Shown piece by piece: positions 1 to 10,905 of a stretch of DNA of 11,014 nucleotides; the first letter of the stretch is position 1; each line of letters starts with the position of its first letter. A program made the translations under genes and the position numbers. The notes under the pieces are model-generated. The model saw only the letters and a list, made by a program, of their open reading frames with translations. It was not told where the DNA came from and did no database searches. Source of the stretch: Leclercia sp. UBA7405 (GTDB lineage Bacteria; Pseudomonadota; Gammaproteobacteria; Enterobacterales; Enterobacteriaceae); NCBI GenBank assembly GCA_002469605.1, contig DKMV01000317.1, forward strand, positions 574 to 11,587. Direction: 5' to 3'.

Positions 1-146
1 ATGCGCAGCAGCGTCGACTTGCCGCAGCCGGAGGGCCCCACCATCACCATAAACTCGCCCTCGTTGATGGTGATGGTCAGCGGCTGGATCACCGCATTTT
101 TGCCGTCATACGATTTCGTCACGCTCTGTAAGGTTACGCCTGCCAT
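1..146 (-). CDS. ugpC: Glycerol-3-phosphate importer ATP-binding subunit, N-terminal part (runs off window)
   Basis: ABC-transporter ATPase of the sn-glycerol-3-phosphate (and glycerophosphodiester) importer; it acts on the cytoplasmic face and drives the UgpA/UgpE permease. Only the first 48 codons are present. They begin [19 protein letters not shown] and contain the complete Walker A motif GPSGCGKST at about residues 37-45, followed by LLRM. The N-terminus matches E. coli UgpC as I remember it (MAGLKLQAVTKSWDGK), which favours ugpC over malK or another sugar ATPase. The ATG follows the upstream stop codon directly (TAGATG), so translation is probably coupled to the preceding frame. That frame ends as UgpE does, which agrees with the ugpE-ugpC order, but the rest of ugpE, ugpA and ugpB is missing (see the chimeric frame). 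If transcribed, ugpC would be read from the promoter of the SMR genes. Confidence 0.9.
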
Positions 147-1223
147 CTATTTCTCATTCTCCACCAGGCCACGCACAAACGCGCGCTGCATTACAAGAAC
201 CACCACAACCGGTGGGATCAGGGTTAATAACATCGCCGCCATCACTTCATTCCACTGCGTCGGGCCGCCGCTGCTTTTGATCATGCTTTTTACCCCCGCC
301 ACGGCGGTGCTCAGACTGGCATCATTGATAATCAGCAGCGGCCAGAGATACTGATCGACGCGGCCCAGGGAGATGCCGGTCTGGTTCTCTTCCAGCATAA
401 AAAGGGAGTGTACAAACCAGATGGCCTGAAGCGCCTCGTGGAAGGTGCGCGGCGGATGTTCGGGTACGCGGGCGCAGATAGCCGCAAGATGCAGCAGCTC
501 TTCACGGCGCTCGGGCGAGCCGGCAGCCTCTGCCAGCTGGTGAAGATACTGGCTGTAGCGCCGGGCGTAGGCCACCACGCCGTCGCAGGTGTGCAGCATG
601 GCGGTATAAAAGCAGAAGGCATCGTTGCCTTCGGGCGTCGCCGGGTCGAGTGCAGCAAGGTGTGCTGCCGCCTCGTCGCGAATCCCTTTTATCCCTTTGA
701 TAAGCAGGATGTTGTCATAGCCCGGGCAGGAGTCGCCGCCGCCGTTCTGGGTCTTGATAGTGACGTCGCAAATGCCATCGTCATGGCACCACTCCCACAG
801 CCCCAGGGTGGCAAGCTGCGTTTGTGCCATCTCATCCAGGGAGCGCCCCTCCCAGAAGGGAAACACCTCTTCCCGCAGCAGGCGCTTTGTCTCGTCGTCA
901 ATCTGATAGGGGTCCTGCGCCCGGTGCGGCAGGTTATCAAGCTCCTCAGCCACCCAGCGCCAGCTTATCTCGGGAGAGATCTCTCCCCCACGCGCGCCGC
1001 CCGCCGGGTGGCTGACGATCAGTTCATTTTCTGCAACGTACAAAGGGGCGTGCTCACAGGCCCGGCGAAAGGCCAGCGCCCGGAGCAGGCTGTTATTCAT
1101 CCCCGGGTTTTCCCGGTACACGGCGGTCACGTTACGCGCCCGGTGGGCCGAGATAAAGGGCTTTGCCCGTAAATAGGTATCGCGAAGCTGGGTCACCCGC
1201 GGTGAAAGGGCATCGGTATGCAT
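147..1223 (-). CDS. Chimeric frame: CutC-like glycyl radical enzyme N-terminus fused to UgpE C-terminus; probably non-functional
   Basis: A 358-residue open frame made of parts of two unrelated proteins. Residues 1-290 read as the N-terminal third of a pyruvate formate-lyase/choline trimethylamine-lyase type glycyl radical enzyme: [11 protein letters not shown] at 51-61, [11 protein letters not shown] at 86-96, [13 protein letters not shown] at 119-131, [12 protein letters not shown] at 159-170, and [15 protein letters not shown] at 278-292. Residues 298-358 read as the C-terminus of the permease UgpE, including the last membrane helix ([20 protein letters not shown]) and the ending [19 protein letters not shown] (291-297) suits both. 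Such lyases are usually about 800 residues long; the catalytic Cys-x-Glu and the C-terminal radical Gly are absent, and the UgpE part lacks the loop that contacts the ATPase. I chose the ATG at 1223 because AGGAG lies 8 bases before it; an upstream in-frame ATG at 1247 lies inside the SMR gene. The lyase part is closest to CutC, but the Tyr eight residues before Asp164 in CutC is Ile156 here, so its substrate is uncertain. Confidence 0.85.
333..353 (-). other. Junction of the two gene halves at a shared QYLWPLL-coding segment
   Basis: This 21-base segment encodes QYLWPLL. Upstream, the frame is an unbroken glycyl radical enzyme up to GRVD, and this family normally continues GRVDQY followed by an aromatic residue and Pro. 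Downstream it is an unbroken UgpE, where E. coli UgpE reads [11 protein letters not shown]. The join is in frame with no extra or missing base, as expected for recombination, template switching or mis-assembly at a short identical stretch. The parental genes are not in the window, so the real length of identity cannot be measured here; CAG-TAT for Gln-Tyr may be all that is shared. Confidence 0.75.
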
Positions 1224-1236
1224 TTTGCCTCTCCTG

Positions 1237-1560
1237 TTAAAACGCAATCACAATCAGCCCGGCCACGATGCAGCAGATCCCCAGTTTTTCGAGGGCGCTG
1301 GTGCGCAGCGGGTAAAAGATGCTACTTACAAGCGTGATCATTACAATGCCCATCCCGGACCAGATGGCGTAAGCCACCACAGGTGAGATCCAGCCCATTA
1401 ACATTGACAGGGCATAGAATGAGATGGCGTAACAGGCCAGGCATACTATAGCGAGCGAGGTTATTTTAAAGTTATTCGTTTTAGGTAATAACAGCGTGGC
1501 GATAACTTCCATAGAGACGGAAATAAAAAGCCAACATAAATAGCTTAAAATGTTAAACAT
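1237..1560 (-). CDS. Small multidrug resistance (SMR/EmrE-family) transporter, second of a pair
   Basis: A 107-residue inner-membrane protein with four hydrophobic helices, the usual SMR size and topology. SMR proteins exchange protons for cations, often quaternary ammonium compounds, and work as dimers. The key residues are visible: membrane Glu18 (in SMEVIA, equal to EmrE Glu14), Tyr44 (EmrE Tyr40) and Trp67 in the signature [12 protein letters not shown] (EmrE Trp63), with the same spacing as EmrE. It ends 13 bases before the glycyl radical frame and starts 13 bases after the stop of the other SMR gene, so the three are probably one operon. No clear Shine-Dalgarno sequence precedes its ATG (the bases just before read ATCACCTCAT), so translation may depend on the upstream gene. 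The paired, non-identical arrangement suggests a heterodimer. Given the neighbouring CutC-like lyase, choline or a related amine is a plausible substrate; this is inference. Confidence 0.88.
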
Positions 1561-1573
1561 ATGAGGTGATATT

Positions 1574-1912
1574 TTATTTATTTTGTTTAATGGCGAGATT
1601 AAGAATTAACGTGCCGGTAATTACCATGCTCAGTCCGATAACCGTCTCATGGGACATAAGAAAGTCAAAGTAGCGCCCCTGAATAAATGTAATGCTGAGT
1701 ATTCCCACCGCAGACCAGATGGCGTAGGCCACGCCAATATGGATCCGGCGCAGCGCCAGCGATAAACAGTAATAGCTCAGGCCATAGAAAATTAGCGCCG
1801 TCATGCCAATGACCGGTCGTTGAAAACTATTCGAAAGCGATAATAAAGTCGTGGCGATAACTTCAATGGTAACCGCGGCAATTAACGCGGCTACGCATTT
1901 AGATAACGTCAT
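1574..1912 (-). CDS. Small multidrug resistance (SMR/EmrE-family) transporter, first of a pair
   Basis: A 112-residue, four-helix inner-membrane protein of the SMR family. The proton/substrate-binding Glu17 lies in TIEVIATTLL, Tyr43 and Trp66 (in VAYAIWSAVGI) have the spacing seen in EmrE, and the C-terminus ends with charged, soluble residues (IKQNK). The start is well placed: TGAGGTG lies about 5 bases before the ATG. It is the first gene of a leftward set with the second SMR gene and the glycyl radical frame. Codon and base use are visibly richer in A+T than in the neighbouring phzF-like and bet genes, which may mean transfer. The 105 bases upstream (1913-2017) are very A+T-rich and contain the perfect palindrome AATAATATTATT (1966-1977); I could not pick a convincing promoter there, so read-through from the phzF-like gene is possible. 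Pairs of SMR genes are reported in choline trimethylamine-lyase clusters, which fits the gene downstream. Confidence 0.9.
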   Translation of the reverse strand: MTLSKCVAALIAAVTIEVIATTLLSLSNSFQRPVIGMTALIFYGLSYYCLSLALRRIHIGVAYAIWSAVGILSITFIQGRYFDFLMSHETVIGLSMVITGTLILNLAIKQNK

Positions 1913-2017: not shown

Positions 2018-2818
2018 TTATAAAATAAGCACGCCTTCTATTACCCGATATGCTTCGCCAGAAAGCGCGACGCGATCGTTATCTTTCATTTCGCAAATAA
2101 GCTCCCCTTTACGGCTGCCGCCCTGCTGGGCATGTAACCGCGTCTTCCCCAGTTTCTCGCTCCACAGCGGAGCCAGGAAAGTATGGGCAGAGCCGGTAAC
2201 CGGATCTTCGTTTACGCCCACCTGCGGGCCGAACCAGCGGGAGCGAAAATCAAAGGTGCGCGAGGGGGCGGTCACCACCACGCCGCGCACGTCGAACGTT
2301 GCCAGGGCGGTAAAATCAGGCGTGATACCGTCAAGCTGGGCTTCATCGTCCAGCACCACGATAAGATCGGACGCCTGCCAGAATTCACAGGCTCCCTGCT
2401 CAATGCCAAGCGCCGACAGCAGCCCCTGCGGGGCGGCTATGCGGGACGGTTTAACCCGCGGGAAGTCGAGGGTAAAGGTGCCTATATCGGCGGTCACGGT
2501 CAGTTCGCCGCTGCGGGTAAAAAAGCGCAGGCGTTCGCCGTTTTCACCGCCCAATAGCACGCTTGCGGCGGCGAGAGTGGCGTGGCCGCAGAGATCCACC
2601 TCCGTTGCCGGGGTAAACCAGCGCAGCGCAAATCCCTCGTCCTGTTTCACCACAAAGGCGGTTTCCGACAGGTTATTTTCCGTGGCAATGCGCTGAAGCA
2701 GCGCATCTTCCGGCCATGCCTCCAGCAGGCAAACGGCGGCGGGATTGCCCGTAAAAGGCCCGGTAGAGAAGGCGTCAACCTGGTAAAACGGAATGCGTTG
2801 TGAACCGTTAATTTTCAC
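2018..2818 (-). CDS. PhzF-family isomerase-like protein
   Basis: A 266-residue cytoplasmic protein of the PhzF/diaminopimelate-epimerase-like fold. Visible family marks: YQVDAFSTGPFTGNPAAV near the N-terminus, NLSETAF containing the Glu that acts as the general acid/base in PhzF, FTPATEVDLCGHATLAAA, and EDPVTGSAHTFLAPLW in the second half-domain. These are the usual places where the two pseudo-symmetric halves close over the substrate. Members range from the phenazine enzyme PhzF to many proteins of unknown substrate (such as E. coli YddE); nothing here points to phenazine genes, so only the family is assigned. The start is GTG: GAGGT lies 5 bases before it, and no ATG lies near. It overlaps the end of the upstream regulator gene by 11 bases, so the two are translated together and the regulator probably senses the substrate or product. 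Confidence 0.88.
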   Translation of the reverse strand: MKINGSQRIPFYQVDAFSTGPFTGNPAAVCLLEAWPEDALLQRIATENNLSETAFVVKQDEGFALRWFTPATEVDLCGHATLAAASVLLGGENGERLRFFTRSGELTVTADIGTFTLDFPRVKPSRIAAPQGLLSALGIEQGACEFWQASDLIVVLDDEAQLDGITPDFTALATFDVRGVVVTAPSRTFDFRSRWFGPQVGVNEDPVTGSAHTFLAPLWSEKLGKTRLHAQQGGSRKGELICEMKDNDRVALSGEAYRVIEGVLIL

Positions 2819-3476
2819 TTATTACCTCGAGGTCGTTATAAACCGTATAGCGCGTTACGCCCAGCGCCTGGGCGGCATGTTGTACGCCGCCCCGCATCTT
2901 GAAAATACCTTTTGCCTGCATTTCAGCGACGATTTTCAACCGCTGCGCTTTCTGTATTTTCTTGCCGGAGACCGAATGTTTTTCAATGAGCTCCTGAATC
3001 GACTGCTCAATCAGCCCACCCAGATTCGTCTCCGCACCTTCAGCGTCAGCCGGCGCAGTGGCTATTATCGCGTCGAGACTTTTGCGTAGTTGCTCATACG
3101 GCGAGGTATCGACATTGATACAGAAAGCGATCAACGGCTGACCATCATCAGCATAGTAGAGGGTAGAGGCGCTAATCAGCACCTTCCCCGATGCGGTCAC
3201 CGTTTTGTAGTCTTTTAACGTCCTCGGCTTACCGTCTTTGCTTTTATTGAGCACCAGGGCAAATCCTTTATCCCTTTCCGGGCCGGACAGCAGATGATCG
3301 CCCGTGCCACGCCCGCTGACGTGCCCATTGATAATTTTTACAATCGAGCTATCCGGGGTGGTGAGATCGTGTAAAACAACCTCCTGGTTTGCCGATAAGG
3401 TGCCCGCCATCGCCTCCATGGCCGCCTCGAGCGGCCCGGAAATCAGTTCAATCTGCTGCCTGTAGTCTGATTTCAT
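2808..3476 (-). CDS. YheO-like transcriptional regulator (PAS-like domain plus C-terminal HTH)
   Basis: A 222-residue DNA-binding regulator. Residues about 8-120 form the YheO/PAS_6-type sensor domain (LEAAMEAMAGTLSANQEVVLHDL, IINGHVSGRGTGDHLL, ISASTLYYADDGQPLIAFCINVD). The C-terminal ~60 residues carry the DauR/YheO-type helix-turn-helix (KAQRLKIVAEMQAKGIF, then HAAQALGVTRYTVYNDLEVI). Relatives include YheO and the D-arginine utilisation repressor DauR. The ATG follows AAGGA at 7 bases. It is the first gene of a two-gene unit with the phzF-like gene, the two coding ends overlapping by 11 bases. A near-consensus promoter and an inverted repeat lie in the 190 bases upstream, so it may control itself and perhaps the divergent lipoprotein gene. 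The ligand is not evident from sequence; an amino acid or related metabolite is a guess from DauR and from the epimerase-like partner. Confidence 0.87.
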   Translation of the reverse strand: MKSDYRQQIELISGPLEAAMEAMAGTLSANQEVVLHDLTTPDSSIVKIINGHVSGRGTGDHLLSGPERDKGFALVLNKSKDGKPRTLKDYKTVTASGKVLISASTLYYADDGQPLIAFCINVDTSPYEQLRKSLDAIIATAPADAEGAETNLGGLIEQSIQELIEKHSVSGKKIQKAQRLKIVAEMQAKGIFKMRGGVQHAAQALGVTRYTVYNDLEVISEN

Positions 3477-3547
3477 CGTTAATCCTTCGTCTGCATCGTT
3501 ATCAGTTACCGGGGCGTCACTCTACCATGGCGGGGCCGACGGGCTTA

Positions 3548-3570
3548 AATTATACGCATGATGTGTAATT
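3548..3570. promoter_or_regulatory. Inverted repeat, candidate operator for the YheO-like regulator
   Basis: Arms AATTATAC (3548-3555) and GTGTAATT (3563-3570) match in 7 of 8 pairs around a 7-base spacer. The left arm contains the -10 element of the leftward promoter, so a protein bound here would block transcription of the regulator and phzF-like genes. That the YheO-like protein itself binds is inference from position. Confidence 0.45.
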
Positions 3571-3578
3571 ATCAACAA
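3549..3578 (-). promoter_or_regulatory. Promoter of the yheO-like/phzF-like unit
   Basis: On the minus strand a perfect -10 TATAAT (3549-3554) follows a -35-like TTGTTG (3573-3578) at 18 bases. Transcription would start near 3542 and leave a leader of about 65 bases before the ATG at 3476. Confidence 0.55.
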
Positions 3579-3668
3579 AAAGTTGAATTTATCGGCCAGG
3601 CGACGTACCTTTTGCCGCTATAAGGGCAGGCGCTCATTCCGGGCGTCTCTGTAGGTAGTGGAAAAACA

Positions 3669-4025
3669 ATGAAATTTATTGGCATTATCCTGGCCGCCTC
3701 TCTGCTGGTGGCGTGCGGCCTGATCCGCCCCTTCGGCGATGCAACGGTATATGAGCCTTATTCGGTGTCGGCGCGACCGGGAGTGGTCTGGCGGTATGAG
3801 TGCATGCGAGACGTGCTGGAGGCCCGCGGCTACGACGTGGAGAGCATTTTCCCGGAGCAGGATAGCCCCAACTTTTTTGATATCTCGCGGGACGGGCAGC
3901 GAATTGCGCGGGTGGATATGAGCGGTGGCAAAGGGGACAGAACCACTGCTATTACGTTAATTGCCGGATCGAAAGCGGTTAACGAGGCGCTCGGAAGGCT
4001 TATCGCGCCTTGCCTGCAACGATAA
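3669..4025 (+). CDS. Small lipoprotein of unknown function
   Basis: A 118-residue exported lipoprotein that I do not recognise. Residues 1-15 form a short signal peptide (MKFIGIILAASLLVA) and Cys16 completes a lipobox (LVAC); Gly17 at position +2 gives no inner-membrane retention signal, so the outer membrane is the likely home. The mature part is about 100 residues, soluble, with two more cysteines (Cys45 and Cys115) that could form a disulfide. It has an aromatic/charged stretch (VVWRYECMRDVLEARGYDV) and a glycine-rich turn (DMSGGKGDRT). GTGGA lies 6 bases before the ATG, a weak but acceptable ribosome site. It stands alone on the plus strand, divergent from the regulator and convergent with betA, and is followed by a strong hairpin. 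No clear promoter was found; TATAAG at 3619-3624 could be a -10 element but lacks a good -35. Confidence 0.75.
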   Translation: MKFIGIILAASLLVACGLIRPFGDATVYEPYSVSARPGVVWRYECMRDVLEARGYDVESIFPEQDSPNFFDISRDGQRIARVDMSGGKGDRTTAITLIAGSKAVNEALGRLIAPCLQR

Positions 4026-4039
4026 GTCGCACGCGGTTT

Positions 4040-4066
4040 CTCCCCCCATCCGCTGGATAGGGGGAG
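4040..4066. terminator. Hairpin between convergent lipoprotein gene and betA
   Basis: Stem CTCCCCCCATCC / GGATAGGGGGAG pairs at 11 of 12 positions around a 3-base loop (GCT). It sits between two convergent genes, so it may end transcription from both sides. Neither strand has a run of T after the stem, so it may instead be one of the short intergenic palindromes common in enterobacteria. Confidence 0.45.
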
Positions 4067-4074
4067 AGGTGCCC

Positions 4075-5739
4075 TTAGAGGCGAACCGGTGCCCCGTTCG
4101 CCACATAATAGGCGGCCGTGCTTTTCGCCAGCGGCTCGCGCCCGCGAATGGCGTCGGCAATCTTCTCGCCAATCATGATGGTGGTGGCGTTCAGGTTGCC
4201 GGTGACGATCTGCGGCATGATAGAGGCATCCACCACGCGCAGCCCCTCCAGCCCGTGGACGCGGCATTCGCCGTCCACCACTGCCATCTCGTCGACGCCC
4301 ATCTTGCAGGTGCCGCACGGGTGGAAGGCGGTTTCGGCATGGTTACGCACGAACTCGTCCAGCTGCTCGTCGGTCTGGCACTCCGCCCCCGGGCTTATCT
4401 CCCGGCCGCGGTATTTATCCAGCGCCGGCTGGTGCATGATCTCGCGGGTGATGCGGATGGCGTCGCGGAACTCCTGCCAGTCCTGCTCGTGGGACATATA
4501 GTTAAACAGAATTGCCGGATGCTGGTGCGGATCGCGGGATTTGATGCGCACGTGGCCGCGGCTCGGCGAGCGCATGGAGCCGACGTGACACTGGAATCCG
4601 TGCTCTTTTACCGCGTTGGAGCCGTTGTAGTTAATCGCCACCGGCAGGAAGTGGTACTGAATGTTCGGCCACTCAAATTCTTCCCGGCTGCGGATAAACC
4701 CGCCCCCTTCGAAGTGGTTGCTGGCCCCCACGCCGGTGCCGCCAAACAGCCACTCGGCGCCAATCTTCGGCTGGTTCCACCACTGCAGGGCAGGGTAGAG
4801 GGAGACCGGCTCTTTGCACTCGTACTGGAGATACATCTCCAGGTGATCCTGTAGGTTCTCCCCCACGCCGGGCAGATCGTGCACCAGCGGGATATCGAAC
4901 TGCTTCAGCAGCTCGGCGCTGCCCACGCCGGAGCGCTGCAGGATCTGCGGCGAGGCGATAGCCCCCGCGCAGAGCAAAACTTCCTTGTTGGCGGTCGCCT
5001 TCGACGGGATGCTGCTCTCGCCCTCCAGCCACTCCACGCCCACCGCGCGCTTGCCGTCAAAAATAATGTGATCGGTCATGGCGTGGGTGCGGATGGTCAG
5101 ATTCGGACGCTGTTTTGCCTGATCCAGATAGCCGCGCGCGGTACTGGCGCGTCGGCCCTGCGGCGTCACCGTCCGGTCCATCGGGCCGAAGCCCTCCTGC
5201 TGGTAGCCGTTGAGATCGTCCGTGCGCGGATAGCCCGCCTGCACGCCCGCCTCAATCATCGCCTCAAACAGCGGATTCACGCCCGGTTTAGAGGTGGTGA
5301 CGCTCACCGGGCCGTTACTGCCGTGGTAGTCGTTAGCCCCCACGTCGCGGCTCTCGGCCTTGCGGTAGTAGGGCAGGCAGTTGAGATAACTCCAGTGCTC
5401 AAGGCCCGGTACTTTCGCCCAGTTATCGAGATCCAGGGCGTTGCCGCGCACGTAGCACATGCCGTTGATGAGCGACGAGCCGCCCAGCCCTTTGCCGCGT
5501 CCGCACTCCATGCGGCGGTTGTTCATGTGTGGCTCAGGCTCTGTCTCATAAGCCCAGTTATAGCGCTTGCCCTGCAGCGGATACGCCAGCGCGGCGGGCA
5601 TCTGGGTGCGGAAGTCAAGGCGGTAATCCGGCCCGCCTGCCTCAAGCAGCAGAACGGTGGTATTCGCATCTTCCGTCAGTCGTGTTGCCAGTACGTTGCC
5701 GGCAGAGCCGGCACCAATAATGATGTAGTCAAATTGCAA
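4075..5739 (-). CDS. betA: Choline dehydrogenase
   Basis: Membrane-associated FAD enzyme that oxidises choline to betaine aldehyde (and can carry this on to glycine betaine) in osmoprotectant synthesis. The 554 residues compare with about 556 in E. coli, and similarity runs end to end. A GMC-oxidoreductase layout is visible: FAD-binding GAGSAG at residues 9-14, the GMC signature [20 protein letters not shown] near residues 85-105, a second signature around [15 protein letters not shown], and the C-terminal HPCGTCKMG and [15 protein letters not shown] segments that carry the active-site region. The start is TTG at 5739, giving (M)[13 protein letters not shown] as in E. coli; GGGAGG lies 5 bases before it, whereas the longer frame to 5784 runs into betB. 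It is the last gene of betIBA, 13 bases after betB. Confidence 0.97.
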
Positions 5740-5750
5740 ATAAACCTCCC
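5737..5750 (-). promoter_or_regulatory. betA ribosome binding site with TTG start
   Basis: Minus strand reads GGGAGG, five bases (TTTAT), then TTG. This strong ribosome site decides for the TTG start; no ATG or GTG gives the family N-terminus. Confidence 0.8.
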
Positions 5751-5752
5751 GG

Positions 5753-7225
5753 TTAAAATATGGACTGGAATTTACCCATCTCAACCTGGATGGACTTCAC
5801 CTGGGTGTAGCTTTGCAGCGTCATCACGCCGTTCTCGCGGCCAATGCCGGAGTGTTTGTAGCCGCCTACCGGCATCTCTGCGGCGGATTCACCCCAGGTA
5901 TTGATCCAGCAGATGCCCGCTTCGAGCTGATGGATAGCGGCGTGGGCGCGGTTCAGATCGCGGGTGACGATGCCCGCCGCCAGGCCGTAGTCGGTGTCGT
6001 TGGCGCGGCGAATCACCTCTTCGTCGTTTTCATAGGTGAGGATGGACATCACCGGGCCGAAGATCTCTTCGCGCACGATGGTCATCTCGTCGGTGCAGTC
6101 GGTAAAGACGGTGGGGGCCACCCACGCGCCCTGGTCAAAGTCGTCGCCCTTCAGCACGTCGCCGCCGCAGAGCACGCGTGCCCCTTCTTCTTTGCCTTTG
6201 GCGATGTAGCGCAGCACGTTGTCCCGGTGCGGGAAGCTCACCAGCGGACCAAAGTTGGTCTGTTCATCGAACAGATCGCCCGCACGGATGCGGCCCACGC
6301 GCTCGACAATTTTCTGCTCAAATTCGGCTTTATACTTCGCAGGCACAAAGACGCGGGTGCCGTTGGTGCACACCTGGCCGGAGCTGAAGAAGTTGGCCAT
6401 CATGGCGATGTCGGCCGCCATATCAAGATCCGCGTCGTCGAAGACGATCAGCGGCGATTTGCCCCCCAGCTCCATGGTCACCTCTTTCAGGGAGGAGGCC
6501 GCCGCGTTGGCCATCACCTTTTTGCCGCTGGCAACGCCGCCGGTGAAGGAGACTTTTTCGATGCCGGAATGCTCGGTAAGGAACTGGCCGGTTTCGGCGC
6601 CCACGCCCGGCAGGACGTTAAACACGCCGTCCGGCAGGCCCGCTTCGGTGTAGATCTCCGCAAGCTTAAGGGCGGTGAGCGGCGTCACTTCGCTCGGCTT
6701 GAAGATCATCGCATTGCCCGCTGCCAGCGCCGGGGCCGATTTCCACAGGGCGATCTGGATCGGGTAGTTCCACGCGCCGATACCCGCCACCACGCCCAGC
6801 GGCTCCCGGCGGGTGTAGACGAAGGAGCTGTCGCGCAGGGGGATCTGGCTGCCTTCCAGCGCCGGGATCAGCCCCGCGTAGTACTCCAGCACGTCGGCGC
6901 CGGTGACGATATCGACGGTGGAGGTCTCAGAGAAGGCCTTACCGGTGTCGAGGGTCTCAAGCTTCGCCAGCTCGTCGTTGCGCTCGCGCAGGATGTCGAC
7001 CGCGCGGCGCAGAATGCGCGAGCGCTCCATTGCGGTCATTGCCGCCCAGATTTTCTGCCCACGCGTTGCGCTCTCGACGGCGCGATCCACGTCGTCTCGT
7101 CCGGCGGCCTGAACGGTCGCCAGAACCTCACCGTTGGCCGGGTTGATGGTCTCGAAGGTGCGACCGCTGGTGGCCGATGTATAACCACCATTGATATAAA
7201 GCTGCTGTTCTGCCATTCGGGACAT
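5753..7225 (-). CDS. betB: Betaine aldehyde dehydrogenase
   Basis: Cytoplasmic NAD(P)-dependent aldehyde dehydrogenase that converts betaine aldehyde to glycine betaine, the second step of the choline-glycine betaine pathway. The 490 residues equal the E. coli length, and the sequence is nearly the same throughout, including the N-terminus [20 protein letters not shown]. Catalytic Cys286 lies in [13 protein letters not shown] and the general base Glu252 in [10 protein letters not shown]; the cofactor-binding region includes [20 protein letters not shown] and [10 protein letters not shown] (about 227-236). The C-terminus carries [21 protein letters not shown] lies 5-6 bases before the ATG. It is the middle gene of betIBA, 13 bases from each neighbour, and is under BetI control from the shared betT-betI region. 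Confidence 0.98.
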
Positions 7226-7238
7226 AAATTCTCCTCGG

Positions 7239-7826
7239 TTAATCGGTGGGTAAATGCTGACTGATAAAGTGGCTGGTCAGCGACTGGGCCAGGGTCTTAT
7301 CGAGCGGCTTGCCGCTCAGGGCCGCGCGCAGCCAGAGCCCGTCAATCAGGGCTGCAAGACCGTAGCCCGCCTCCTGCGCCTGCTCGCGCGGCAGCTCGCG
7401 GCGAAACTCGTACACCAGATTCGACAGCAGGCGGCGGCTGCTCACTTGCTGCAGACGGTAGAGCATCGGCTGGTGCATGCTGCTCGCCCAGAAGGCCAGC
7501 CAGGCCTTCATCGCCGCGCCGCTGATTTGGGTTTCATCGAAGTTGCCGCCGACGATCGCCTGTAATCGCTGCTCCGCGCTGCCGTCGGGCAGAGCGCGCA
7601 GGCGGCTTAAGACCGCATCGCGCAGCTGGCCGGTGATGTCGCGCATCGTCGCTTCCAGCAGACCGTTTTTATCCCTGAAGTAGTGGCTGATGATCCCGGT
7701 AGAGACGCCCGCCCGACGGGCGATCTGCGCGATGGTTGCATCGTGCATGCCCACTTCATTTATTGCTTCCAGCGTGGCGTCGATAAGCTGCCTGCGCCGG
7801 ATCGGCTGCATCCCCAGTTTGGGCAT
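7239..7826 (-). CDS. betI: Choline-sensing TetR-family repressor BetI
   Basis: Repressor of the bet genes; in E. coli it is released when choline is present. The 195 residues equal the E. coli length. A TetR-type N-terminal helix-turn-helix is visible ([20 protein letters not shown], about residues 32-51), followed by an all-helical ligand domain with the conserved [20 protein letters not shown]. The start at 7826 gives [13 protein letters not shown] as in E. coli; GGAG lies 8 bases before it. An in-frame ATG at 7844 has no ribosome site and would add six residues, so I rejected it. It is the first gene of betIBA and lies divergent to betT; the BetI-type palindrome lies within the control region about 50 bases upstream. 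Confidence 0.97.
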
Positions 7827-7859
7827 TATTGCCACTCCATTCATCAGCGTTGGTTATGT

Positions 7860-7888
7860 ATTAAAGCGGTTTTTGATTGGACGTTCAA
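7860..7888 (-). promoter_or_regulatory. betIBA promoter
   Basis: On the minus strand -35 TTGAAC (7883-7888) and -10 TTTAAT (7860-7865) are separated by 17 bases, placing the transcript start near 7853, about 27 bases before the betI ATG. The -35 lies inside the BetI-type palindrome, which explains repression. In E. coli this promoter is induced by osmotic stress and choline. Confidence 0.65.
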
Positions 7889-7889
7889 T
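7876..7889. promoter_or_regulatory. BetI-type operator in the betT-betI control region
   Basis: ATTGGACGTTCAAT is a palindrome around ACGT with a single mismatched pair (G7880/T7885). It lies between the divergent betT and betI genes and overlaps the leftward -35, the expected place for the BetI site that controls both directions in E. coli. The betT promoter is not clear: TTGGAC (7877-7882) could be its -35, with TTAATT (7902-7907) as a poor -10 at 19 bases. Confidence 0.65.
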
Positions 7890-7954
7890 ATAAAATGTGT
7901 CTTAATTGTTGCGATTTTGGATTTCAATAGTTACAAAAAAGGTGGGGATACTGG

Positions 7955-9988
7955 ATGACAGATCTTTCGCAGAACAGAGAAAAGGACAAAATCAATCCTG
8001 TTGTGTTCTACACGTCCGCAGGACTGATTTTGTTGTTTTCCCTGACGACGATCTTCTTTAGAGAGTTTTCGGCCGAGTGGATTGGACGCACCCTCAACTG
8101 GGTGTCGAAGACCTTCGGCTGGTACTATTTGCTGGCGGCGACGCTCTATATTGTTTTTGTGGTCTGCATTGCCTGCTCGCGCTTTGGCTCGGTCAAGCTC
8201 GGGCCCGAGCAGTCAAAACCGGAGTTCAGCCTGCTGAGCTGGGCGGCCATGCTGTTTGCCGCCGGGATTGGCATCGATCTGATGTTCTTCTCGGTGGCCG
8301 AACCGGTGACGCAGTATATGCAGCCGCCGGAAGGGGCGGGGCAGACGATGGAGGCCGCGCGCCAGGCGATGGTCTGGACGTTGTTCCACTACGGCCTGAC
8401 CGGCTGGTCGATGTATGCCCTGATGGGGATGGCGCTCGGATACTTTAGCTATCGTTATAATTTGCCCCTGACTATCCGCTCTGCGCTCTATCCGATCTTC
8501 GGTAAAAAGATTAACGGACCCATCGGCCACAGCGTGGATATTGCGGCGGTGATTGGCACCATCTTCGGCATTGCCACCACGCTTGGGATCGGCGTGGTGC
8601 AGCTCAACTATGGCCTGAGCGTGCTCTTTGATATCCCGGACTCGATGGCGGCCAAAGCGGCGCTGATTGCGCTGTCGGTGATTATCGCCACCATATCGGT
8701 CACCTCCGGGGTCGATAAGGGCATCCGCGTGCTTTCCGAGCTGAACGTGGCGCTGGCGCTGGGCTTAATCCTGTTTGTGCTCTTTATGGGCGACACCTCG
8801 TTCCTGCTCAACGCCTTAGTGCTGAACGTCGGTGACTATGTGAACCGCTTTATGGGCATGACGCTGAACAGCTTCGCCTTTGATCGCCCGGTGGAGTGGA
8901 TGAACAACTGGACGCTCTTCTTCTGGGCGTGGTGGGTGGCGTGGTCGCCGTTCGTTGGCCTGTTCCTGGCGCGTATTTCGCGTGGGCGCACCATCCGTCA
9001 GTTTGTGCTGGGTACGCTGATTATTCCGTTCACCTTTACCCTTCTGTGGCTGTCGGTCTTTGGCAACAGCGCCCTGCACGAGATCATTCACGGCGATGCG
9101 GCCTTTGCCCAGGAGGCGATGGCGCACCCGGAGCGCGGCTTCTATAGCCTGCTGGCGCAGTATCCCGCCTTTACCTTTAGCGCCTCGGTGGCCACCATCA
9201 CCGGCCTGCTGTTCTACGTCACCTCGGCGGACTCCGGCGCGCTGGTGCTGGGGAACTTCACCTCGAAGCTGAAGGACATTAACAGCGATGCGCCGAACTG
9301 GCTGCGGATCTTCTGGTCGGTGGCTATCGGTCTGCTGACGCTTGGCATGCTGATGACCAACGGCATTTCGGCCCTGCAAAACACCACGGTGATCATGGGG
9401 CTGCCGTTCAGCTTTGTAATCTTCTTTGTGATGGCGGGGCTCTATAAGTCGCTGAAGGTGGAAGATTATCGCCGGGAGAGCGCCAACCGGGATACCGCCC
9501 CGCGCCCGATGGGAACCCAGGATCGCCTGAGCTGGAAGAAGCGCCTGTCGCGCCTGATGAACTATCCTGGCACGCGCTATACCAGCCAGATGATGGAGAC
9601 GGTCTGTTTCCCGGCGATGGAAGAGGTGGCTCAGGAGCTGAAGCTGCGCGGCGCACGCGTCGAGTTGAAAAACCTGCCGCCGGAAGAGGGCGAGACCCTG
9701 GGGCATCTGGATCTGCTGGTGGATATGGGCGACGAACAGAACTTTGTCTACCAGATCTGGCCGCAGCAGTATTCGGTGCCGGGCTTTACCTACCGCGCCC
9801 GTAGCGGTAAATCCACCTACTACCGGCTGGAGACCTTCCTGCTGGAGGGGAGCCAGGGGAATGACCTGATGGATTACAGCAAAGAGCAGGTGATTACCGA
9901 TATTCTGGATCAGTACGAGCGGCACCTGAACTTTATCCACCTGCACAGGGAGGCGCCGGGGAATAGCGTTATGTTCCCGGACGTGTAG
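7955..9988 (+). CDS. betT: High-affinity choline:proton symporter BetT
   Basis: Inner-membrane BCCT-family transporter that imports choline, driven by protons, for conversion to glycine betaine. The 677 residues equal the E. coli length, and the two are nearly identical in the membrane part. About 12 helices span residues ~15-510. The BCCT tryptophan-rich signature WTLFFWAWWVAWSPFVGLFL lies at about 318-337, followed by ARISRGRTIRQF. Residues ~510-677 form the long hydrophilic C-terminal tail that, in BetT, takes part in osmotic activation. The ATG follows AGGTGGGG at about 8 bases, and the protein begins MTDLSQNREKDKINPVVFY as in E. coli. It diverges from betIBA over a 128-base control region and is followed by a 12-bp hairpin. 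In E. coli it is repressed by BetI and by ArcA in low oxygen; only the BetI palindrome is visible here. Confidence 0.98.
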   Translation: MTDLSQNREKDKINPVVFYTSAGLILLFSLTTIFFREFSAEWIGRTLNWVSKTFGWYYLLAATLYIVFVVCIACSRFGSVKLGPEQSKPEFSLLSWAAMLFAAGIGIDLMFFSVAEPVTQYMQPPEGAGQTMEAARQAMVWTLFHYGLTGWSMYALMGMALGYFSYRYNLPLTIRSALYPIFGKKINGPIGHSVDIAAVIGTIFGIATTLGIGVVQLNYGLSVLFDIPDSMAAKAALIALSVIIATISVTSGVDKGIRVLSELNVALALGLILFVLFMGDTSFLLNALVLNVGDYVNRFMGMTLNSFAFDRPVEWMNNWTLFFWAWWVAWSPFVGLFLARISRGRTIRQFVLGTLIIPFTFTLLWLSVFGNSALHEIIHGDAAFAQEAMAHPERGFYSLLAQYPAFTFSASVATITGLLFYVTSADSGALVLGNFTSKLKDINSDAPNWLRIFWSVAIGLLTLGMLMTNGISALQNTTVIMGLPFSFVIFFVMAGLYKSLKVEDYRRESANRDTAPRPMGTQDRLSWKKRLSRLMNYPGTRYTSQMMETVCFPAMEEVAQELKLRGARVELKNLPPEEGETLGHLDLLVDMGDEQNFVYQIWPQQYSVPGFTYRARSGKSTYYRLETFLLEGSQGNDLMDYSKEQVITDILDQYERHLNFIHLHREAPGNSVMFPDV

Positions 9989-10048: not shown

Positions 10049-10549
10049 TCATACGTCTGTTGATTCTCTCTTTTCTGGTTTAAGCCAGGCATCACTATAT
10101 TTGATATTACTTTTAACGTAGTGCCACTCAATACTGCGTGAGCGAAGCTTTACCACCTCATGCATATTGGGCGCCGAGCTGCCCGGATAATAGACATGGG
10201 TAAATTCCACGGCGGCGATAACCACGCTATCAAGCGTGATGGTATAGATTTCGGTTTCGATACCGGCATCAGCAATTTCATAATATTTGATAACCGCTTT
10301 TTGCAGGCGCTTGCTTTCGCAAACGGCGACGGCGAGCCAAGGACTAATCCTGTCCAGTTGCTTATGTAGGACCACAGGATCGTGTTGTCTCGTGCCGGTC
10401 ATATTTCCGGTATGGCCATCGACGCTCTGTTTTACGCCATAGCTACTGTTCATGATCTCTATCGCACCTTCACGGCCTGGCATCACGCAGTTACCCTGAA
10501 CCTGCGTTCCATTTTCGTCGTAGAGAAATAAATAAGCGGGTAGTGACAT
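10049..10549 (-). CDS. Hcp-family type VI secretion tube protein (orphan copy)
   Basis: A 166-residue protein that matches the Hcp/TssD family over its length. Visible family segments: MSLPAYLFL at the N-terminus, VVLHKQLDRISPWLAVAV (the Hcp VHKPL...SP.L region), KAVIKYYE, ETEIYTITLDSVVIAAVEF and, near the end, VKLRSRSIEWHYVKSNIKYSDAW. Hcp forms stacked hexameric rings, the inner tube of the type VI secretion system, and also carries effectors in its lumen. No other tube, sheath or baseplate gene is in the window, so this is an orphan copy or the edge of a larger cluster. Its ATG overlaps the stop of the upstream lipoprotein gene (TAATG), with AGGAG 8 bases before the ATG inside that gene, so the two are translationally coupled. 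The residues after EWHYVK (KPEKRESTDV) form only a short tail, with no toxin domain. Confidence 0.85.
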   Translation of the reverse strand: MSLPAYLFLYDENGTQVQGNCVMPGREGAIEIMNSSYGVKQSVDGHTGNMTGTRQHDPVVLHKQLDRISPWLAVAVCESKRLQKAVIKYYEIADAGIETEIYTITLDSVVIAAVEFTHVYYPGSSAPNMHEVVKLRSRSIEWHYVKSNIKYSDAWLKPEKRESTDV

Positions 10550-10905
10550 TAGAATTCTCCTGTATGTGTTAACATTCCGTTATTATCAATAAAAAACTCA
10601 TGATGATAATCTTTGTTATTTAGTCCGTAGGAAACGGTATAGCTATATCCATATTTCCATTTAATGTTTATACAGGTATTGGGATAAGATACATTGAGGT
10701 TGATATTATCAGAAGCTTTAATTATAGGGCTTTTTAGATTTTCACTCGAATAAATAACATAATAATCTAACACGTCGTTCTTATTGATGCTAAAACAAAG
10801 ATAATCTCCATTAATAAATGTGGAGCGGGTTTTTGGTGCTCGTTTGCCGCCGGGGCAGCCCGTTAATAATGAGCATAACAGCAAGATCAGTATTGTTTTT
10901 TTCAT
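10549..10905 (-). CDS. Lipoprotein, putative type VI secretion immunity protein
   Basis: A 118-residue exported lipoprotein. Residues 1-16 form the signal peptide (MKKTILILLLCSLLTG) and Cys17 completes the lipobox LTGC, followed by PGGKR; with Pro at +2 it should reach the outer membrane, facing the periplasm. The mature part is small and beta-rich in appearance, with two cysteines (Cys37 in GDYLCFSI, Cys78 in YPNTCINI) that could form a disulfide, and a C-terminal motif YHHEFFIDNNGMLT. The CPGG start, CFS and FIDNN pattern resembles a widespread enterobacterial family annotated as putative type VI immunity lipoproteins; this is from memory. AAGGA lies 9 bases before the ATG. Its ATG overlaps the stop of the upstream partial gene (ATGA) and its stop overlaps hcp (TAATG). 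Base use is much richer in A+T than in the bet genes, a common sign of transfer in toxin/immunity genes. Which toxin it would neutralise is unknown. Confidence 0.8.
   Translation of the reverse strand: MKKTILILLLCSLLTGCPGGKRAPKTRSTFINGDYLCFSINKNDVLDYYVIYSSENLKSPIIKASDNINLNVSYPNTCINIKWKYGYSYTVSYGLNNKDYHHEFFIDNNGMLTHTGEF

Follow-up and report, generated by a model that had tools for sequence, protein, structure and literature searches.

The frame that joins the choline lyase CutC to the end of the permease UgpE in this DNA very probably represents an assembly (or library) chimera formed at a 24-nt word shared by the two genes, and not a new gene. As far as the sequence tells, a foreign piece of 355 bases resembling Pantoea eucrina almost certainly sits within an otherwise ordinary host cutC, as an error of the record. 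The initial annotation had left two readings side by side, a false join by an assembler at a short common sequence and a real fusion by deletion or rearrangement. The former is supported by the presence of two source genomes, a shared word and an edge made of a 21-nt copy of this word followed by two Ns, while the latter is not supported. The window, i.e. the whole stretch of 11,014 nucleotides that was analysed, corresponds to bases 574-11587 of contig C113 (11,587 bases), which belongs to a draft genome (G000) of 3.57 Mb in 396 contigs with a completeness of 79.6% and an estimated contamination of 1.05%.

As recorded, window positions 147-1223 hold a 358-codon open frame on the minus strand (mechanical ORF start: TTG at 1247; likely ATG: 1223), in which a CutC part of about 297 residues is followed by a UgpE tail before the frame meets the start of ugpC. 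The CutC-like part, the UgpE end and the passage into ugpC had all been described initially, and they are confirmed by the open reading frame, by the NCBIfam and Pfam matches and by the presence of ugpC codons 1-48 at window 1-146. The NCBIfam model choline_CutC (TIGR04394) aligns its positions 2-292 with residues 7-297 of the fused protein (E 2.9e-109), and Pfam reports a PFL-like domain at residues 8-296. The UgpE model (NF008210) aligns with residues 290-358 (E 2.9e-32), its score of 112.5 bits against a cut-off of 297 covering only positions 213-281 of a 281-position model. Read from the left end of the window, the start of ugpC (codons 1-48; window 1-146, minus strand) abuts the two-N gap at C113:572-573 and forms, together with the ugpE tail (147-355, minus strand), one foreign P. 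eucrina-like block of 355 bases. The last bases of this block (332-355, no strand assigned) are the word that host cutC has in common with ugpE of P. eucrina, and mark the join site; being the maximal common word, they agree with the site at 333-353 proposed at first. The 5' part of the host's own cutC, encoding residues 1 to about 289, then occupies 356-1223 on the minus strand, the shared word supplying the next residues.

The host gene does not end at the foreign block. The window starts directly after the NN at C113:572-573, and cutC resumes to the left of it: read on the same strand, C113:1-571 gives more CutC, which picks up at the same motif (YLWPLLKRDLDDG...). Its translation (...YLWPLLKRDLDDGTLSLPQAEELLCC...) contains a GCVEP segment and corresponds to positions 289-464 of the CutC model. 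The rest of the gene lies at C269:3-929 (model positions 481-789; 91% identity to the intact gene of the related genome G033), with an RVAGYSAF segment near its end. The host pieces thereby tile the 789-position model as 2-292 (window), 289-464 (left part of C113) and 481-789 (C269). Scored apart and unjoined, they reach 366.8, 284.7 and 433.4 bits, the cut-off of 1050 applying to the whole protein. Both GCVEP and RVAGYSAF, which we take to be the catalytic cysteine and radical-glycine segments of CutC, respectively, are thus found in the host cutC pieces, in each case outside the window. A glycyl-radical activase gene follows the end of cutC at C269:895-1854. It passes the general model for glycyl-radical activating proteins (TIGR02494, 329.7 bits against a cut-off of 174.35), although it scores 293.3 bits against a cut-off of 360 with the CutC-specific activase model TIGR04395 in spite of adjoining cutC; this model may be tuned to other types of CutD. 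Since cutC sequence resumes beyond the ugp piece, the host gene is not truncated at window position 355. A deletion that removed the lyase active site, the radical glycine and the activase, as initially suggested, is therefore contradicted by C113:1-571, C269:3-929 and C269:895-1854. The lyase side does run on into further lyase sequence in C113 and C269, which is one half of the mark of an assembly error named beforehand, the other half being reads that span the join.

A close cutC was found in two of the 35 same-genus genomes searched, G009 (81% over the first 307 residues) and G033 (80% over the first 305), and in both it is preceded by two small SMR-type transporter genes in the same order as in the window (1237-1912, minus strand; named from the look of the sequence). 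These relatives provide the intact cutC locus, one of the two that the initial annotation had proposed to look for, and in each of them the two cutC flanks of the block abut within one gene. In G033 (L008), both host flanks fall within one intact cutC of 793 codons, the left one ending at base 2372 and the right one starting from base 2391; they have 20 bases of the duplicated word in common, with zero bases missing between them. In G009 (L007), the corresponding positions in one continuous gene are 2374 and 2391. The flank overlap in the two relatives is hence 18-20 bases of duplicated word and no more. C269 also falls in line after C113, base 1 of C113 corresponding to base 2542 and base 6 of C269 to base 2556 of L108. 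The host pieces match across the model of CutC (TIGR04394), in its 793-residue Enterobacter form with an adjoining activase gene, the activase being placed as in G033. The closest full-length relative of the G033 protein is annotated as Enterobacter cloacae complex (94%), which makes Enterobacter the probable genus of the host. Whereas the host cutC of this record is split by a foreign block and by a contig break, the genes of G009 and G033 show neither.

At the right edge of the block, the exact match between Pantoea ugpE and the host cutC is TCAGCAGCGGCCAGAGATACTGAT (window 332-355), so that the parental DNAs, whose comparison at the join had been called for, are identical over 24 nt. Past the word, the contig continues as cutC (CGACGCG...) and P. 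eucrina as ugpE (TCCAGCC...). When the foreign block is omitted, the host contig has no word of at least 25 nt in common here with the two P. eucrina loci of 8 kb. The word translates as NQYLWPLL in ugpE and as DQYLWPLL in cutC, and it is present in both genes because QYLWPLL happens to occur in either protein and to be encoded identically. In a public collection with one genome per species, which possibly leaves out the genome of the window, the word occurs in 32 records, all of them with UgpE-type permease-like frames as judged by eye from the translated segments, including eight from Pantoea and none with a lyase. Because all 32 are permease-like, we regard it as a normal ugpE word that is shared by chance with this cutC. 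The left edge is of another kind. Here, 21 nt of the shared word recur as a direct copy at C113:551-571 (two copies in none of 200 shuffles), followed by NN and then by codon 48 of ugpC, a point at which P. eucrina ugpC runs on uninterrupted. No continuous sequence crosses this edge in the record. Since it consists of NN, and since runs of 142 and 151 Ns were seen in two other contigs inspected, the genome is a scaffolded draft. The reading frame is kept at the shared word because the shared codons force it; it is also kept across the NN, provided that the gap really measures two bases, which is explained by a one-in-three chance.

The origin of the block was indicated by comparison with ugp loci. 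It aligns with P. eucrina LMG 5346 (L094) at 98.6% over its full 355 bases (5 mismatches, 0 gaps), with P. eucrina Russ (L083) at 96.9% and with nine other loci of the genus Pantoea at 80.9-88.5%, some of these nine being probably one genome under two identifiers. The genome's own ugp locus, on C350, reaches 74.9% and carries frames of 281 codons for ugpE and 360 codons for ugpC, so the loss of most ugp genes put forward initially is not supported. Of 392 genomes of the family, 231 have a match to the ugp piece; leaving aside the window's own genome, the best match, at 87%, lies in genus g170. In this genus, 60 of 61 genomes match the piece, with two well ahead at 98% and 97% and the next ones at 88%; on account of their equal figures, these two are probably P. 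eucrina LMG 5346 and Russ. The UgpE tail is found at 72-75% protein identity to the piece in 34 of the 35 same-genus genomes searched. A second, diverged ugp locus of the host is therefore an unlikely source, given these 72-75% (protein) versus 98.6% (DNA) for P. eucrina. As the piece is closest to another genus, the cutC and ugp "parents" need never have adjoined in one genome. The piece comprises 69 codons from the end of ugpE and 48 from the start of ugpC; compared with the P. eucrina sn-glycerol-3-phosphate ABC transporter genes, the gene order is normal and the remainder of the operon is absent beside it. Its G+C content (56.2%) is not set apart from that of its flanks (56.8% and 60.9%), so base composition gives no evidence either way.

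A comparison of 8,000 bases of the P. eucrina locus with the genome, in which 40 of 154 first-look candidates were scored, reported 21 matches. Identities above 90% are confined to the 355-base block (99%) and an exact scrap of 27 bases, the rest being four scraps of 43-60 bases at 82-86% and fifteen matches at 65-79%. The 27-base match, between G000:C324:103-129 and P. eucrina LMG 5346 L094:7931-7957, is possibly conserved sequence or another scrap. As to further origins, a search of E. coli, sensitive only to near relatives, gave no match. PLSDB, where likewise only near relatives are detectable, returned just six plasmid records, in which 62-104 bases of ugpC align at 79-87%, and an origin from E. 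coli or from a PLSDB plasmid was rejected.

A search with the fused protein as query covered about 5.8 billion proteins and gave 845 matches among 8,000 scored candidates, the best 120 of which were listed; its length limits excluded full-length CutC, which suited a test for fusions. With the two parts compared separately, 40 of these best 120 match the lyase part and 81 the UgpE part, the query being the only one to match both, and a match covering both halves was found in none of 60 relatives searched (39 with any match). Among the best 120 of 845 matches, the fusion is thus known from a single sequence, on a single contig (11,587 bases). On these results, a real CutC-UgpE fusion family, which the initial annotation had considered as a true two-part family, was rejected. 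They also bear on the idea of an old fusion gene in which a deletion between two loci of one genome brought a glycyl radical enzyme and a UgpE tail together. Such a history could claim that the frame is open and that both halves are well conserved, but its probability is negligible: the same genome also contains more cutC, an activase gene and frames of full length for ugpE and ugpC, and the ugp part is closest to another genus. A deletion between the two loci was itself rejected on the sequence of both loci elsewhere in the genome. In the literature, searched among others for cutC together with ugpE, no account of this join was found, the cutC and ugpE papers being judged by title.

The chimera can be pictured as follows. 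The host would have an ordinary cutC holding a 24-nt word that is also found in P. eucrina ugpE. Via this word, a short stretch of ugpE and ugpC, whose source (an organism or a library) resembled P. eucrina, would have been joined to the contig carrying the 5' part of cutC, and the next cutC contig, with the same word at its end, would then have been scaffolded on with two Ns. The joining step itself may have been a graph path (with k no larger than 24), the filling of a gap or a chimeric molecule in the library, and Pantoea would have been present in the sequenced material. Three observations fit this picture: each side has a source genome of its own (the block agrees with P. eucrina at 98.6% and with the host's ugp locus at 74.9%, while cutC continues in the host), the join lies in an exact 24-nt word common to both parents, and the second edge is a copy of 21 nt of this word followed by NN (C113:551-573). 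Chimeric contigs produced by k-mer based metagenome assembly (PMC8172020) offer a likeness, although the host genome may be no metagenome bin. The low estimated contamination speaks against a chimera. In the comparison with one 8-kb P. eucrina locus (40 of 154 candidates scored), no second P. eucrina-like stretch besides the 27-base scrap was reported.

Within this explanation, the chimera may have arisen during library preparation, when a polymerase switched templates at the 24-nt word, rather than in the assembly software. We hold this route to be unlikely, and its share lies inside the high probability granted to an assembly or library chimera as a whole. Template switching also uses short shared words, and we infer a length of roughly one sequencing insert for the piece; nevertheless, a library chimera would have to outvote the normal cutC reads in the assembly. 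Outside this explanation, a fragment of P. eucrina ugp may really have recombined into cutC at the 24-nt word, an event that would inactivate cutC and place direct copies of the word on both sides of the fragment. Such an insertion would agree with a block that is a clean 355-base foreign piece, and a single crossover of a circularised fragment also gives a direct repeat on both sides. Moreover, the NN may not equal the true length of the gap, and a longer real insert is compatible with the record. However, a true crossover would, after the left copy, enter the upstream part of Pantoea ugpE, where the record instead gives NN and codon 48 of ugpC, and a second illegitimate junction would be needed exactly at the assembly gap, unless this gap far exceeds two bases. 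In addition, the comparison with the P. eucrina locus reported no further long stretch in the genome (40 of 154 candidates scored), there is no second example among the 120 listed proteins (best 120 of 845), and we consider a real insertion highly improbable. In its most far-reaching form, this same improbable insertion would be a capture of P. eucrina ugp DNA at a 24-nt chance match of unrelated gene families in an Enterobacter-like cell, with choline cleavage switched off in that strain. Were it real, the join would offer an exceptionally clear example of foreign DNA being taken up through a chance match.

With an assembly or library chimera as the preferred explanation, the record is to be corrected to a genome with an ordinary cutC-activase locus, whose cutC has been split by assembly, and with a separate ugp locus of its own. 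Neither a lyase-permease fusion nor a broken choline lyase should be read from it. More generally, a chimera can pass for a clean gene fusion when the window under study happens to begin just behind a scaffold gap, and in this case a few hundred bases past the window, together with the species of each side, settled most of the question.

Among the proteins related to this locus, P0039 (221 residues, "Pyruvate formate-lyase [Enterobacter cancerogenus]") combines an SMR domain (PF00893) with a lyase domain (PF02901). The lyase portion aligns with residues 1-89 of the fused protein at 83%, with off-frame-looking sequence on both sides, and the protein looks like the product of frameshifts across two neighbouring genes and not like a fusion.

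In the remainder of the window, the SMR pair is followed at 2018-9988 by what we take to be a PhzF-like gene and a regulator-like gene, then by look-alikes of betA, betB, betI and betT. The right end (10049-10905) presumably encodes one protein like Hcp-type secretion proteins and one like small lipoproteins. If, as we assume, the bet-like set converts choline to glycine betaine, aerobic choline genes would lie beside the anaerobic cutC locus.
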